The position numbers and the translations under genes were made by a program. From Arthrobacter cryoconiti (GTDB taxonomy: Bacteria > Actinomycetota > Actinomycetes > Actinomycetales > Micrococcaceae), in contig NZ_JAJJBU010000003.1 in assembly GCF_020905375.1 (NCBI RefSeq), forward strand, positions 434,001-498,000: a stretch of DNA of 64,000 nt. Reading direction: 5' to 3'. Shown here in pieces: positions 20,713 to 46,132 of this stretch (position 1 is its first letter; each line of letters starts with the position of its first letter). The notes beneath the pieces were generated by a model. That model saw nothing but the letters and a program-made list of their open reading frames with translations. It made no database searches and was not told the DNA's origin.

Positions 20713-20820
20713 AGGTCATGAGTGCCAGCGACAAGCCCCGGCTCGCTGGTCGGCAACCCTCCACCGCGGTGGGGTGCCCCGGGTGAAGACCTGGCACCGA
20801 ACCGCCCGGTTTCGGTGCAA
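20713..20820 (+). ncRNA. SAM-IV riboswitch
   Basis: The segment has the conserved core of the actinobacterial SAM-I/IV riboswitch clan: catgagtgccagcg, then ccccggctcgctgg, ggcaaccctcc, gcggtggggtgccccgggtga. P1 pairs AGGTC (20713-20717) with GACCT (20788-20792). A downstream hairpin with 8-bp arms (gcaccgaa / ttcggtgc, 20794-20818) matches the extra helix that separates SAM-IV from SAM-I. It sits about 90 bp before metY, as in Mycobacterium tuberculosis upstream of Rv3340. S-adenosylmethionine binding would switch off metY and metX. Confidence 0.92.
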
Positions 20821-20912
20821 GCGCGGACACACTGCACTTTCGAGCTCAATCCTGCCGTCATTACGGTCTGGGTCGAACTTTTGGTGGGTCCATAGTGTCA
20901 AAGGAGCTCACA

Positions 20913-40559: not shown

Positions 40560-41741
40560 GTGACCGTTACAGACATCCCCACCAGCGCTACCAAACTTGA
40601 CTTGCCTCCCTTGAAGCTAGGCAACATCACAGTTACGACCCCAGTGGTGCTTGCCCCCATGGCAGGTATCACCAATACGGCCTTCCGCAGGCTGTGCCGC
40701 GAGCACGGCGGAGGTGTATTTGTTTCGGAAATGGTCACTTCTAGGGCTCTCGTGGAGCGCACACCCGAGTCCATGCGGCTGATCAGCCATGACGAGGACG
40801 AGGAAATTCGCTCCGTCCAGCTCTACGGTGTTGATCCGGAGACCGTGGGCCGGGCTGTGCGCATGCTGGTTGAGGAAGACCACGCGGACCACATCGATCT
40901 GAACTTCGGCTGTCCTGTGGCGAAGGTGACGCGTCGAGGTGGCGGCGCGGCGCTTCCATGGAAGACCGATCTGTTTGCCTCGATTGTGCAGACAGCCGTG
41001 AAAGAGGCATCCAAGGGCGGCCTTCCGCTGACCATCAAGATGCGTAAAGGGATTGACGATGACCACCTGACGTACCTTGAAGCCGGACGGATCGCGCGCG
41101 ATGCCGGGGTAGCTGCCGTGGCACTGCACGGGCGCACTGCTGGCCAGTTCTACTCCGGACACGCCGACTGGGACGCCATCGCAAGGCTCCGCGAAGTGTT
41201 GCCGGACATCCCAGTCTTGGGAAACGGTGACATCTGGAGTGCTGAGGACGCCATCGCCATGGTCCGCCAAACCGGTGTTGACGGCGTTGTGGTCGGGCGG
41301 GGCTGCCAGGGCCGTCCGTGGCTCTTCGGCGATCTCAAAGCGGCCTTTGAGGGCAGCGAGGAACGCCACCGCCCTGGATTGGCAGAAGTATCCGCCGCCG
41401 TCTATCGGCACGCTGAGCTGCTCGTTGACACGTTCGACGACGAAAACAAGGCCCTGCGTGACATTCGCAAGCACATGGCCTGGTATTTCAAGGGCTACGT
41501 AGTGGGGGGAGAACTGCGCGCCCAGTTGGCCGCCGTGCCCACACTCGAGGTACTGCGTGGTCTCCTGGACCAGCTGGACATGGAATCCCCCTACCCAGGA
41601 GCCGACGCCGAAGGGCCCCGAGGCCGCGCCGGCACGCCCAAGCGCACGGCGTTGCCCGAAGGATGGTTGAAGTCCCGCAATCTCAGCGGCGAGCAGCAGG
41701 CAGATATTGGTGCCGCGGAATTGGACGTTTCCGGGGGATAG
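40560..41741 (+). CDS. dusB: tRNA-dihydrouridine synthase
   Basis: A 393-residue FMN enzyme that reduces uridine in tRNA D-loops. It has VLAPMAGITNTAFRRLCREHGGG at the N-terminus, the catalytic Cys in DLNFGCPVAKVTRRGGGAAL (about residue 122), LTIKMRKGIDDDH, VALHGRTAGQFYSG, LGNGDIWSAEDA and VVVGRGCQGRPWLF. GTG 40560 is used; ATG 40556 is out of frame. It precedes dgt and dnaG, an order I associate with actinobacteria. The repeat array begins about 10 bp after its stop. Confidence 0.95.
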   Translation: MTVTDIPTSATKLDLPPLKLGNITVTTPVVLAPMAGITNTAFRRLCREHGGGVFVSEMVTSRALVERTPESMRLISHDEDEEIRSVQLYGVDPETVGRAVRMLVEEDHADHIDLNFGCPVAKVTRRGGGAALPWKTDLFASIVQTAVKEASKGGLPLTIKMRKGIDDDHLTYLEAGRIARDAGVAAVALHGRTAGQFYSGHADWDAIARLREVLPDIPVLGNGDIWSAEDAIAMVRQTGVDGVVVGRGCQGRPWLFGDLKAAFEGSEERHRPGLAEVSAAVYRHAELLVDTFDDENKALRDIRKHMAWYFKGYVVGGELRAQLAAVPTLEVLRGLLDQLDMESPYPGADAEGPRGRAGTPKRTALPEGWLKSRNLSGEQQADIGAAELDVSGG

Positions 41742-41748
41742 TCCCCAA

Positions 41749-42303
41749 ACGCTCCCACAACTCGCACGCTCGTTGCGGGGCCCTCGCGTTTGTGGGCCCA
41801 GTACGCTGCCGACTGTGCACGCTCGTTGCGGGGCCCTCGCGTTTGTGGGCCGAGTAAGCTCCCGACTGTGCGAGCTCGTTGCGGGGCCCTCGCGTTTGTG
41901 GGCCCAGTACGCTCCCACAACTCGCACGCTCGTTGCGGGGCCCTCGCGTTTGTGGGCCCAGTACGCTGCCGACTGTGCACGCTCGTTGCGGGGCCCTCGC
42001 GTTTGTGGGCCGAGTAAGCTCCCGACTGTGCGAGCTCGTTGCGGGGCCCTCGCGTTTGTGGGCCCAGTACGCTCCCACAACTCGCACGCTCGTTGCGGGG
42101 CCCTCGCGTTTGTGGGCCCAGTACGCTGCCGACTGTGCACGCTCGTTGCGGGGCCCTCGCGTTTGTGGGCCGAGTAAGCTCCCGACTGTGCGAGCTCGTT
42201 GCGGGGCCCTCGCGTTTGTGGGCCCAGTACGCTCCCACAACTCGCACGCTCGTTGCGGGGCCCTCGCGTTTGTGGGCCCAGTACGCTCCCGACTGTGCGA
42301 GCT
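41749..42303 (+). repeat. 53/54-bp tandem repeat array with 160-bp higher-order period
   Basis: Ten copies of a 28-bp core starting cgttgcggggccctcgcgtt and ending tgtgggcc begin at 41771, 41824, 41877, 41931, 41984, 42037, 42091, 42144, 42197 and 42251. Cores are followed by one of three tails in strict order: A (25 bp), B (25 bp), C (26 bp), so A-B-C forms a 160-bp unit. The three 160-bp copies (41771-41930, 41931-42090, 42091-42250) look identical. The array starts with a bare C tail and ends with a hybrid A/B tail. Most cores contain gggccc twice, 10 bp apart, giving a small hairpin. It fills the dusB-dgt spacer. Confidence 0.95.
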
Positions 42304-42363
42304 CCGGCAACCAGCTAACTCAGGAGCCAGCTGTGGACAACGTCCATGACTGTCGCCAGCTTG

Positions 42364-42379
42364 GCCCTAAACTTAGGGC
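42364..42379. promoter_or_regulatory. Dyad abutting the dgt start codon
   Basis: gccctaa-ac-ttagggc is a perfect 7-2-7 palindrome one base before ATG 42381. The only purine run near the start (aggg) lies inside the right arm, so folding could hide the ribosome-binding site; alternatively it is an operator. Confidence 0.55.
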
Positions 42380-42380
42380 T

Positions 42381-43655
42381 ATGTCTACCAGCGCGCAGCC
42401 AGAGTATTCCGCCAGCGACGTGGAACGGTGGGTCCAGGAGGCCCACAAGAGCAGTTTCCGCACCGTTTTTGAGCGTGATCGGGCACGCGTCTTGCACTCT
42501 TCTGCGTTGCGCCGCCTCGGAGCCAAGACCCAAGTGGTGGCTCCGGACACCGACGATTTTGTCCGAACCCGCCTCACCCACAGCTTGGAAGTGGCCCAAA
42601 TAGGCCGCGAGCTGGGCCGTGTCTTGGGCTGCGACCCGGACGTGGTGGATACGGCATGCCTCTCTCACGACCTTGGACATCCCCCGTTCGGCCACAATGG
42701 CGAGTCAATTCTCAACGCCCTCTCCCATGACATTGGCGGTTTTGAAGGCAATGCCCAGACGCTGCGCCTGCTGACACGCTTGGAGCCAAAAGTCATGACG
42801 CCGGACGGCGGTTCGGCCGGTTTGAACTTGACCCGTGCCTCATTGGATGCAGCTTCCAAGTACCCGTGGTTAGCTGCCGACGCTCCTTTGCTGGATGGAC
42901 GCCGGACCAGCAAATTTGGTGCCTATGCCGACGATCTGCCCGTTTTTGAATGGTTACGCAGGGACGCCCCCACAGCGAAAACGTGCATCGAGGCTCAGGT
43001 CATGGATTTAGCTGATGACATTTCCTACTCCGTCCACGACGTGGAAGATGCGATCGTTGCAGGGCACGTTCAGCTCAAATGGCTGGCTAATGCCGACCAG
43101 CGCAGCAGAGTTTTGGGCTACACCCAACAGTGGTATCTGCCAGGTTCACAGACAGCAGAGATCGAGGCTGCACTGGCCCGGCTAGAATCCACAGACGTCT
43201 GGGTTCGGCATGCAGACGGCAGCCGAGCCTCAATGGCGGCTCTGAAGGATATGACGAGTCAGCTGATTGGACGGTTCTGCCAGAGCGCAGTCGCTGCTAC
43301 CCAAGCCCTCTACGGCACAGGAAGGCTCACCCGGTACGCCGCTGACGTCGTCGTGCCTCGAGAAACTAGTGTCGAAATCGCCGTCATGAAGGGCCTAGCC
43401 ACCACGTTCGTCATGACCACGGACCACCGCCAACCCATCTATCAGCGCCAGCAGGACGTGCTCAGCGAACTTGTTGCCGTCCTTAATGCCACAGGGGACG
43501 CGCATTTGGAGACCATGTTTGCCGCAGATTGGCAAAATGCGCAGGACGACGACGCCCGACTCCGAGTCGTGATCGATCAAATTGCCTCGTTGACTGACGT
43601 TTCGGCGCTGGCATTGCATGAACGCCTTGTCGGCATGGAGCGCACACTGCTTTAG
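42381..43655 (+). CDS. dgt: Deoxyguanosinetriphosphate triphosphohydrolase-like protein
   Basis: A 424-residue HD-domain dNTPase that removes triphosphate from dGTP and related dNTPs. The HD motif residues are in RTRLTHSLEVAQIGRELG (about residue 65) and CLSHDLGHPPFGHNGE (about residue 100), with MDLADDISYSVHDVEDA (about residue 210) supplying a further ligand. ATG 42381 (MSTSAQPEYS) is chosen; the frame is open upstream only because the repeat array contains no stops. It lies 94 bp before dnaG, so control of dNTP pools and priming may be linked. Confidence 0.93.
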   Translation: MSTSAQPEYSASDVERWVQEAHKSSFRTVFERDRARVLHSSALRRLGAKTQVVAPDTDDFVRTRLTHSLEVAQIGRELGRVLGCDPDVVDTACLSHDLGHPPFGHNGESILNALSHDIGGFEGNAQTLRLLTRLEPKVMTPDGGSAGLNLTRASLDAASKYPWLAADAPLLDGRRTSKFGAYADDLPVFEWLRRDAPTAKTCIEAQVMDLADDISYSVHDVEDAIVAGHVQLKWLANADQRSRVLGYTQQWYLPGSQTAEIEAALARLESTDVWVRHADGSRASMAALKDMTSQLIGRFCQSAVAATQALYGTGRLTRYAADVVVPRETSVEIAVMKGLATTFVMTTDHRQPIYQRQQDVLSELVAVLNATGDAHLETMFAADWQNAQDDDARLRVVIDQIASLTDVSALALHERLVGMERTLL

Positions 43656-43749: not shown

Positions 43750-45807
43750 GTGGCCGGGCTGATCAAGAGGGAAGACATCGACGAGGTGCGCACGCGTACC
43801 GATCTGAAAGAGGTCGTCGACGCCTACGTCACGCTCAAATCCGCCGGGATTGGTTCCTTCAAGGGTTTATGCCCTTTCCACGACGAGCGCAGCCCCTCCT
43901 TCCACGTGCGCCCGCAGATGGGGTATTTCCACTGCTTTGGCTGCCAAGAGAGTGGCGACGTCATCTCCTTCGTCCAAAAAATGGACCACATCCCGTTTTC
44001 GGAAGCTGTAGAGAAACTCGCTGGCCGCATCGGCTTTGAGTTGCACTATGAAGACGGTGGGAGTGGACCGCGGCGCGAAGACGTGGGCCGCCGCCAGCGC
44101 TTGCTGGACGCCCACAAGATTGCAGGAGAGTTCTTCCAAGCTCAATTGTTGACACCGGGCGCTGCTACCGGACGGGCTTTTTTGCAGGAGCGCGGCTTTG
44201 AACGAAGTGCCGCTGAACACTTTGGGGTCGGCTACTCCCCGCAGGGTTGGGACGCCCTTCTCAAATACCTCTCCGGTAAAGGGTTCACCCAAGAAGAGCT
44301 GAAACTCACCGGCATGTTCTCCGAAGGTCAGCGGGGGATCTACGACCGTTTTCGGGGTCGGCTCATGTGGCCTATTCGCGATATTGCCGGAGATACGGTG
44401 GGCTTTGGTGCCCGCAAGCTCTTCGACGATGATCAGGGACCCAAATACCTCAACACCCCGGAGACCGTGCTCTACAAGAAGTCCTCGGTGCTCTATGGGA
44501 TCGATTTGGCAAAGCGGAATATCGCCTCCAAACGCCAGCTAGTGGTTGTGGAGGGTTACACCGACGTGATGGCCTGCCACTTGGCTGGTGTGGACACGGC
44601 CGTAGCCACGTGCGGTACCGCCTTCGGTGCCGATCACATCAAGGTTGCTCGCCGCCTGCTTTCAGACGACGGCACTGGTGGTGAGATCGTCTTCACGTTC
44701 GACGGCGACGCTGCCGGGCAAAAGGCGGCGCTGAAGGCCTTTGATGAGGATCAACGCTTTGTTGCGCAGACTTTCGTGGCAGTGGAACCTTCAGGGGCTG
44801 ACCCGTGCGAGCTGCGCCAACGCCGCGGGGACGAGGCCGTCCATTCTCTGATCCGCTCACGTCGACCGTTGTTTGAATTTGCCATTCGCTCCACCCTGGC
44901 CAAATTCGACCTGAGCACGGTAGAAGGGCGTGTCAGCGGACTGCGAGCCTCGGCTCCGGTGGTCGCAGCCATTCGCGATGCCTCTACACGGATGGGCTAC
45001 AGCCAAGAACTCGCTGGCTGGCTGGGTATTGCTGACCCAAACGAGGTGATGCGCGCTGTCAAGGGAGCCGAGAAACGTGCCCAAACCGCTGCCGTAAGCG
45101 GGACTACAGCTTCGCGCCAATCTCCGACGTCTGCGGGTCAGCTCAAGACAGGACAAGACACGTACGACGTCGGCAGCGGCGGACGCGCCAACACCACAAC
45201 TTTTGGGCATCAGGAACACTTTGGTGCGGCAAATCCCGAACCTGGGACCCCTCACCAGAGGCAAAGATGGCAGGACGCCGGAGCCGGTGACGGCGTCGAA
45301 CCTTCCATACAAGAACCGGCTGCACCCGTCTACGAAAGACCGGATCCGCGGGACCCGCAGGGACGGATGGAACGGGAAGCTTTGGAAGTGGTGTTGCAAC
45401 ATCCCGGCTTGCTCACGAGCGGAAACTGGCAACACTTCGCTGCCACCGACTTCGTCATTCCGGCATATAAGGCTGTTCAAACGGGTATCGCCGCGGCAGG
45501 GGAGTCGCTGGTGGCGTCCTCGCAGTGGCTAGAAGCGGTGCGAGAAAACGTGCCAGCTACTCTGGTGTCGCTGGTGGCGGAACTGGCACTTAGCCCGCTA
45601 CCAGCGACAAAGGAAGAAACGCTAAACCGGTATTGCCGGGACATTCTGCGCAGATTATTTGAGATGCAGATCACCCGCCTGAAGCAAGAACGGCTCGGCG
45701 CCCTCCAGCGGATGGATCCAAGCGTGGACCCGGAAGGCTACACGATGCTCCAGCGTGAACTCATGGAGTTGGAAAGTGCTAGACGGGCCCTGCGGGGTGA
45801 CTCTTGA
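43750..45807 (+). CDS. dnaG: DNA primase
   Basis: A 685-residue primase. The N-terminal zinc finger has Cys41, His44, Cys62 and Cys65 (CPFHDERS, CFGCQESG). The RNA polymerase domain follows (FGVGYSPQGWDALLKYL, MWPIRDIAGDTVGFGARKL), with TOPRIM motifs VVVEGYTDVMA and FTFDGDAAGQKAA near residues 263 and 317. A Gln/Gly/Thr-rich linker (about residues 445-535) leads to the helicase-binding C-terminus. GTG 43750 gives MAGLIKREDIDEVR, the usual actinobacterial N-terminus. Essential for replication primers. Confidence 0.96.
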   Translation: MAGLIKREDIDEVRTRTDLKEVVDAYVTLKSAGIGSFKGLCPFHDERSPSFHVRPQMGYFHCFGCQESGDVISFVQKMDHIPFSEAVEKLAGRIGFELHYEDGGSGPRREDVGRRQRLLDAHKIAGEFFQAQLLTPGAATGRAFLQERGFERSAAEHFGVGYSPQGWDALLKYLSGKGFTQEELKLTGMFSEGQRGIYDRFRGRLMWPIRDIAGDTVGFGARKLFDDDQGPKYLNTPETVLYKKSSVLYGIDLAKRNIASKRQLVVVEGYTDVMACHLAGVDTAVATCGTAFGADHIKVARRLLSDDGTGGEIVFTFDGDAAGQKAALKAFDEDQRFVAQTFVAVEPSGADPCELRQRRGDEAVHSLIRSRRPLFEFAIRSTLAKFDLSTVEGRVSGLRASAPVVAAIRDASTRMGYSQELAGWLGIADPNEVMRAVKGAEKRAQTAAVSGTTASRQSPTSAGQLKTGQDTYDVGSGGRANTTTFGHQEHFGAANPEPGTPHQRQRWQDAGAGDGVEPSIQEPAAPVYERPDPRDPQGRMEREALEVVLQHPGLLTSGNWQHFAATDFVIPAYKAVQTGIAAAGESLVASSQWLEAVRENVPATLVSLVAELALSPLPATKEETLNRYCRDILRRLFEMQITRLKQERLGALQRMDPSVDPEGYTMLQRELMELESARRALRGDS

Positions 45808-45868: not shown

Positions 45869-45944
45869 TCCTCTGTAGCTCAATTGGCAGAGCATTCGAC
45901 TGTTAATCGAAGGGTTACTGGTTCAAGTCCAGTCAGAGGAGCCA
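45869..45944 (+). tRNA. tRNA-Asn (GTT), copy 1
   Basis: The 7-bp acceptor stem TCCTCTG/CAGAGGA, the D-arm agctcaattggcagagc, the anticodon loop ctGTTaa (Asn) and the T-arm with ggttcaagtcc are all intact. G73 and an encoded CCA (45942-45944) follow. A short aatccca/tgggatt hairpin comes directly after it. Confidence 0.97.
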
Positions 45945-46056: not shown

Positions 46057-46132
46057 TCCTCTGTAGCTCAATTGGCAGAGCATTCGACTGTTAATCGAAG
46101 GGTTACTGGTTCAAGTCCAGTCAGAGGAGCCA
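46057..46132 (+). tRNA. tRNA-Asn (GTT), copy 2
   Basis: Identical base for base to the first tRNA-Asn 188 bp upstream, including encoded CCA. The flanking sequences differ, so only the gene itself is duplicated. It is followed directly by a strong terminator. Confidence 0.97.

Follow-up and report, generated by a model that had tools for sequence, protein, structure and literature searches.

Mycobacterial interspersed repetitive units (MIRUs) are actinobacterial repeats of about 50-100 bp that occur in tandem, and the attC sites of integrons are imperfect hairpins behind a gene's stop whose bottom strand is the folded, active form. IS200-like transposases include the RAYTs. Passages of Di Nocera et al. 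2013 (PMC3733652) describe GTAG-tagged REPs, whose GTAG tags often supply TAG stops, and CGTC-tagged REPs, a palindromic family apparently without a dedicated transposase. According to parts of PMC12548453, MIRUs are thought to be mobile and fitted to gene edges; they insert at start codons, with an ORF coupled to the next gene.

In this study we analysed a tandem array between dusB and dgt of Arthrobacter cryoconiti, within a stretch of 64,000 nucleotides (the window). On balance we favour the view that the array arose by local tandem growth from a non-autonomous, REP-like and probably mobile hairpin element of the Micrococcaceae. What appears to be new here is the dispersed element together with its tie to stop codons.

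In place and shape the element resembles a GTAG REP, and its nearest known kind is the REP superfamily. Like the GTAG REPs in the passages cited (PMC3733652), it is a short palindromic stem-loop, dispersed in many copies, mostly intergenic (10 of 130 elements or arrays lie within a predicted coding frame) and downstream of genes. Unlike them (20-40 bp in that text), it is 62 nt long, has no fixed base before TAG and uses other stops as well, TAG being present at 36 of 95 starts. We found no unpaired GTAG tag at one end and no dimers in opposite orientation, since all 85 neighbour pairs within 150 bp run head-to-tail (counted over 239 units from three alignments, some places standing under two locus ids). 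The Y1_Tnp domain (PF01797, IS200-like/RAYT), with a control match in E. coli, is lacking in 21 of the 23 genus genomes. With tag, RAYT and opposite dimers all missing, we do not file the element as a GTAG REP. A RAYT partner was rejected because PF01797 occurs in only 2 of the 23 genomes and the stretches around both IS200-like genes contain no element.

The element is also like the CGTC-tagged REPs in being palindromic and in that no dedicated transposase was found, but a CGTC tag is generally missing, and 16 of the 95 starts come after CGT or CGC. Unlike a MIRU, it is anchored at a stop codon and is a hairpin, the next start lies 76 nt past the array, and no ORF of its own coupled to the next gene start was found at this locus. 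It is reminiscent of attC in its hairpin behind a stop and its better paired bottom strand, whereas the genes it follows are ordinary chromosomal ones and not cassettes. A term search of the main text of PMC3733652, figures apart, returned neither Arthrobacter nor Actinobacteria, Micrococc or Kocuria. One table of counts in RepRanger (PMC12306157) includes Arthrobacter livingstonensis, and copies of our element may have been counted there without a name. In the literature searched, mostly outside subscription journals, we found no description of the element in Arthrobacter or Micrococcaceae.

The array between dusB and dgt

The features of the region are as follows.

40560..41741, + strand: dusB, tRNA dihydrouridine synthase (NCBIfam TIGR00737, 362 bits)
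41739..41800, + strand: first and most complete 62-nt hairpin element, TAGTCCCCA...GTGGGCCCA (R1 model, 88.9 bits, E 5.8e-18; fold and covariation)
41749..42304, + strand: tandem array of 10 identical 31-bp cores, three exact 160-bp blocks and a partial fourth (TRF, repeat search)
41905..41960, + strand: second A-type unit, whole-model match (R1, 47.9 bits)
42065..42120, + strand: third A-type unit, whole-model match (R1, 47.9 bits)
42229..42269, + strand: fourth A-type unit, partial match (R1, 46.8 bits, model 11-51)
42361..42373, + strand: predicted promoter-like site TTGGCCCTAAACT, outside the array and just before dgt (conserved in genus loci)
42381..43655, + strand: dgt, dGTP triphosphohydrolase (NF002829, 598 bits)
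43750..45807, + strand: dnaG, DNA primase (TIGR01391, 383 bits)

The exact 31-mer core occurs ten times (starts 41768, 41821, 41874, 41928, 41981, 42034, 42088, 42141, 42194 and 42248; the last ends at 42278), with spacings of 53, 53 and 54 in three rounds. The stretches 41749-41908, 41909-42068 and 42069-42228 are identical 160-mers, and they are followed by the tenth core with a hybrid tail, the array ending at about 42304. TRF scores for its three periods are 848, 852 and 1093. An earlier note on this DNA had described nested 53/54-bp and 160-bp periods between the two genes, with three tails in strict A-B-C order and three identical 160-bp copies, and spacings, TRF and sequence bear this out. 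Its count of ten cores also holds, but the core is an exact 31-mer and not 28 bp long. Likewise the repeats do span 41749-42304, but the element itself begins ten bases earlier, at 41739, and takes in the dusB stop TAG (41739-41741) as its first triplet. Of the paired GGGCCC palindromes ascribed to most cores, the right-hand GGGCCC is present in 7 of 10, while cores 2, 5 and 8 read GGGCCG. Open frames run through the array, as the note had indicated, and the first element is stop-free in all six frames past its leading TAG. Since the DNA is G+C-rich, such frames are no sign of coding, and a protein-coding array was rejected because the open-frame analysis gave no support. A CRISPR array, with identical repeats and unique spacers, was dropped as well, because here the tails themselves recur every 160 bp.

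The earlier note also held that the array fills the control region of dgt, which is not the case: the 76 bases between its end and the dgt ATG (42381) hold the promoter-like site, and this site or a close variant lies 6-7 bases upstream of the dgt start in 20 of the 23 genus loci (in the other three, dgt was not found in the stretch examined). For the same reason the array was rejected as the dgt promoter. As judged from this arrangement, copy number seems unlikely to act through replacement of the dgt promoter, although it may have local effects, and such arrays should not be read as promoters of the next gene. The DusB C-terminal AELDVSGG is common to most Arthrobacter-like named loci, and among named dgt products the closest comes from Arthrobacter sp. 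E3, at 90% identity. We fetched 80 named loci with dgt; 78 of them yielded dusB and the gap, none of the gaps exceeding 152 bp, and L041 and L085 had no dusB. One record titled Vibrio cholerae strain 35D (WNZI01000039.1) carries an Arthrobacter-like dusB-dgt pair with proteins 81% and 77% identical, and looks misnamed or contaminated. Elsewhere in the window we noted a SAM-IV riboswitch (20714-20829, 113.6 bits) and two close tRNA-Asn genes (gtt; 45869-45944 and 46057-46132) with equal Rfam scores.

A dispersed family and its stop codons

The element of about 62 nt consists of a triplet that is often stop-like, then TCCCCA and CTCCC, each followed by a variable arm, then a loop, the arm partners and GTGGGCCCA. 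The array's 31-mer, with up to 3 mismatches, occurs nowhere else in its own genome; its exact 26-mer had no match in one scan of the genome contigs, and a search of plasmids and phages gave none either. A DNA search with the array (the query begins at 41749 and hence lacks TAGTCCCCAA) hit 23 of 58 genomes including its own, namely all 23 of the genus and none of the 35 others. With a covariance model built from 22 copies (R1) we found 13 matches in the own genome (E up to 0.1), including four inside the array. Every one of the 23 genus genomes has matches, from 11 to at least 102 each; up to 150 candidates per genome were scored, so that high counts may be low. Across the family Micrococcaceae, where 22 candidates per genome were scored with stricter filters, 65 of 245 genomes and 12 of 32 genera have matches. 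The earlier note had proposed a search for the core in the genome and its relatives, and had regarded the same array found widely and unchanged as the case against its reading. The search reveals the unit as a family-wide dispersed hairpin element, and that case does not apply: the family is widespread, but array and 31-mer were found only here.

Some copies differ in form. In the own genome, the inner stem of the elements at L123-L126 exceeds the genus consensus in length, and it is nearly perfect in L123 and L124. At L030 and other loci, a second dispersed repeat resembling GGTGGTCGAGCTTGTCGAGACC (starts TCTCGC|TCCCC) stands next to some elements or surrounds them. In another genus, L268 (1501-3057) holds a pair of identical elements separated by about 1.5 kb; an additional outer inverted repeat (GATTGGGGGCCG...CGGCCCCCAATC) encloses one or both of them, which perhaps represent a larger subfamily. 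As a check for a composite element, with a mobiliser carried between two copies, we listed the ORFs around and between these two copies, which we take to be urease accessory genes.

Directly after a stop triplet lie 51 of 95 element starts (TAG 36, TAA 11, TGA 4). At 40 of the 95 the stop closes a frame that stays open through 60 codons or more and outscores the other two frames for coding; 11 of the 51 triplets failed this in-frame test. No stop triplet precedes the other 44 starts, 9 of which follow CGC and 7 CGT. The starts come from 146 model matches in 89 DNA-search loci, with a model lacking the TAG columns; most internal array units were removed manually and orthologous copies retained, and the sample leaves aside about a dozen DNA-search places that already had other locus ids. 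An automatic recount placed 50 of 92 starts at offset 0, against 0-6 at any other offset from -24 to +6, and in an earlier, TAG-biased set 35 of 43 starts followed a stop. Long frames of named relatives, mostly of the same few genes, end in TGA 182, TAG 81 and TAA 40 times; with TGA the commonest stop there, TAG looks over-represented at the elements. The bases preceding TAG in the recount are C 13, A 12, G 8 and T 2. Because of this variable base, and because TGA is the commonest stop in other genera, a TAG within a fixed tetranucleotide was rejected. The loci from those genera were picked with a TAG-bearing model, and a stop precedes 11 of their 23 starts (TGA 6, TAG 4, TAA 1), 10 with frames open for at least 60 codons. 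Nine of ten upstream frames matched NCBIfam: pstB, citrate synthase, ilvC and a ugpC-like ATPase, and, below the curated cut-off and in some cases through a partial gene in the locus, dnaJ, catalase, PEP carboxylase, grpE and purL; the upstream frame of L169 had no NCBIfam match. The PstB and PEP carboxylase matches reach the last profile position, so the stop there is natural.

Judged by eye among the genus genomes, and with some decayed copies counted (G016 at dusB; G005 and G012 at dnaJ), 4 of 23 have an element behind the stop of dusB, 7 of 23 behind that of dnaJ and 7 of 22 behind that of pstB; further remnants are present in 1, 2 and 2 genomes, respectively. On a midpoint-rooted tree of four concatenated genes, this occupancy requires 4, 5 and 5 changes, or 5, 6 and 6 with the remnants. 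The arms differ among all four dusB copies; they are common to G008, G009 and G019 at dnaJ and to G001 and G022 at pstB. No element stands after dusB in the three closest relatives of the window's dusB (G018, G021 and G004; 93%). Our data show that the dusB, dnaJ and pstB ends are occupied in several separate lineages, although insertion long ago, followed by frequent loss and rapid turnover of the arms, could also account for the recurrent occupancy.

The element is probably mobile DNA that inserts, or is kept, immediately behind stops, where it would do little harm. For a genomic parasite, insertion behind a stop without gene damage would be a neat solution. Neither a target duplication nor a shared direct repeat, such as would flank the terminal inverted repeats of a MITE, was seen by eye at the element ends. 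A more specific version we put forward tentatively, as its parts are rather unlikely to hold together: an element that targets stops (TAG, TAA or TGA according to genus), folds as a hairpin of the antisense strand, is moved by a recombinase unrelated to RAYT, and has landed repeatedly on the dusB, dnaJ and pstB ends across species. How DNA machinery could find a stop codon would be testable with the present family, in which the same gene ends are empty or occupied in many species.

Position directly behind in-frame stops would also suit an RNA element of the 3'-UTR, that is, a hairpin which ends or stabilises the upstream mRNA or slows ribosomes at the stop and is held in place by selection. 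According to PMC12306157, REPs located no more than 15 nt past an ORF may have a part in translational control, which would agree with such a role. At any given gene, however, the element is missing from most genus genomes and hence is dispensable, and no terminator-like site was found in the array. Together with the strand evidence given below, this makes the 3'-UTR role improbable, although we would not call it far-fetched.

Stems and the probable folding strand

The stems of the element are real and co-varying. Pairs changed on both sides are seen at 8 of 18 predicted pairs, and at 9 of 17 in at least one copy of the 22-copy alignment. For the 17-pair structure in these 22 copies, the share of standard-paired cells is 94.4% (shuffles 76.8%), and the covariation score of 0.397 (shuffles 0.090) was attained by none of 500 shuffles; with the partner slid by 1-3 columns the score is at most 0.083. 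The number of further pair types is less striking (reached by 74 of 500 shuffles). As the alignment rows are related and the structure was derived from the same sequences, the shuffle controls overstate certainty.

Over 18 pairs, 90.1% of 395 cells are paired on the top strand, which is the sense strand of the upstream gene, and 98.5% of 396 on the bottom, antisense strand. For two stem positions, the paired fraction among 97 distinct 59-mers is 56% and 26% when the top strand is read, but 96% and 85% for the bottom strand. The eight variable pairs in the same 59-mers include 12 G.T and 34 A.C: the bottom strand pairs better because A.C, which accounts for most top-strand mismatches, turns into G.U or G.T there. 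Without the two positions, 58 diverse copies still have more A.C (31) than G.T (14), a modest excess, and the C-richness of the top strand alone would raise the share of A.C a little. That the bottom strand has the lower folding energy was dropped as evidence, because shuffled sequences differ between the strands in the same way. For a mobile element, the relevant fold would probably be that of the antisense strand of the abutted gene, most simply as single-stranded DNA for a putative recombinase or transposase. The strong co-varying stems would fit the 3'-UTR role equally, but an RNA of the sense strand would carry mostly A.C mismatches, the G.U wobbles arising only on the antisense strand.

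Better pairing of the bottom strand raises another possibility, in which this strand is transcribed and its structured RNA acts as a regulator or terminator of an opposite-strand neighbour. Here tandem G.A pairs and a CUUG loop would form from the bottom-strand loop CGAGCTTGCGAG, and some elements do lie close behind an opposite-strand gene. Yet both flanking genes in the window are on the + strand, and for the 52 elements directly behind a stop the next gene is co-directional in 34 (14 are convergent and 4 have no assigned direction). A sigma-70 type consensus scan listed no promoter-like site in 41600-42500, and within the array Rfam gave no match at gathering score, only weak ones with E of 0.1 or more. 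We therefore regard an antisense RNA as quite improbable and retain the mobile hairpin element as our preferred explanation.

Proposed growth of the array at dusB

The array is genuine, and it looks recent. In our reading of the array, the 5' arm of the inner stem, CCCACAAC, is kept by the A units only and is absent from the B and C units, which suggests an order of events for the mobile element: one insertion behind dusB would have been followed by tandem growth at this site, then by decay of two of three units, and finally by duplication of the three-unit block via slippage or unequal exchange. Copy-number change is seen elsewhere too, since behind the dnaJ stop three units stand in G008 and a single one in its close relative G009, the DnaJ proteins being 98% identical. 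Together with the three identical 160-bp copies this agrees with the recent amplification of a three-unit block that the earlier note had proposed.

The length of the array might in part be a product of assembly: the genome (3.6 Mb) is in 57 contigs, and if the reads were short, the number of exact 160-bp repeats would be difficult to establish. However, the array is interior to a 631-kb contig, and other loci, including some in genomes of one or two contigs (L012, L013), also have tandem units of this family, so that we consider this very unlikely. A plain minisatellite grown by slippage, with no family behind it, would fit the exact 160-bp copies but has practically no chance of being right, as it is refuted by the dispersed family in the genus and family genomes, the element being present in 23 of 23 genus genomes, often as a single copy, with co-varying arms.

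Other repeats were noted in dusB-dgt gaps. In L231 the gap holds two more, unrelated tandem arrays with CTAACCCCCGATCCAACGG and CGGTCCATCGTCGCTGCTGCC units. In two close relatives (L240 and L241) it contains a tandem repeat of about 32 bp whose unit begins exactly at the dusB TGA stop, of which one genome has two full copies and the other a single full copy, each followed by a partial one.
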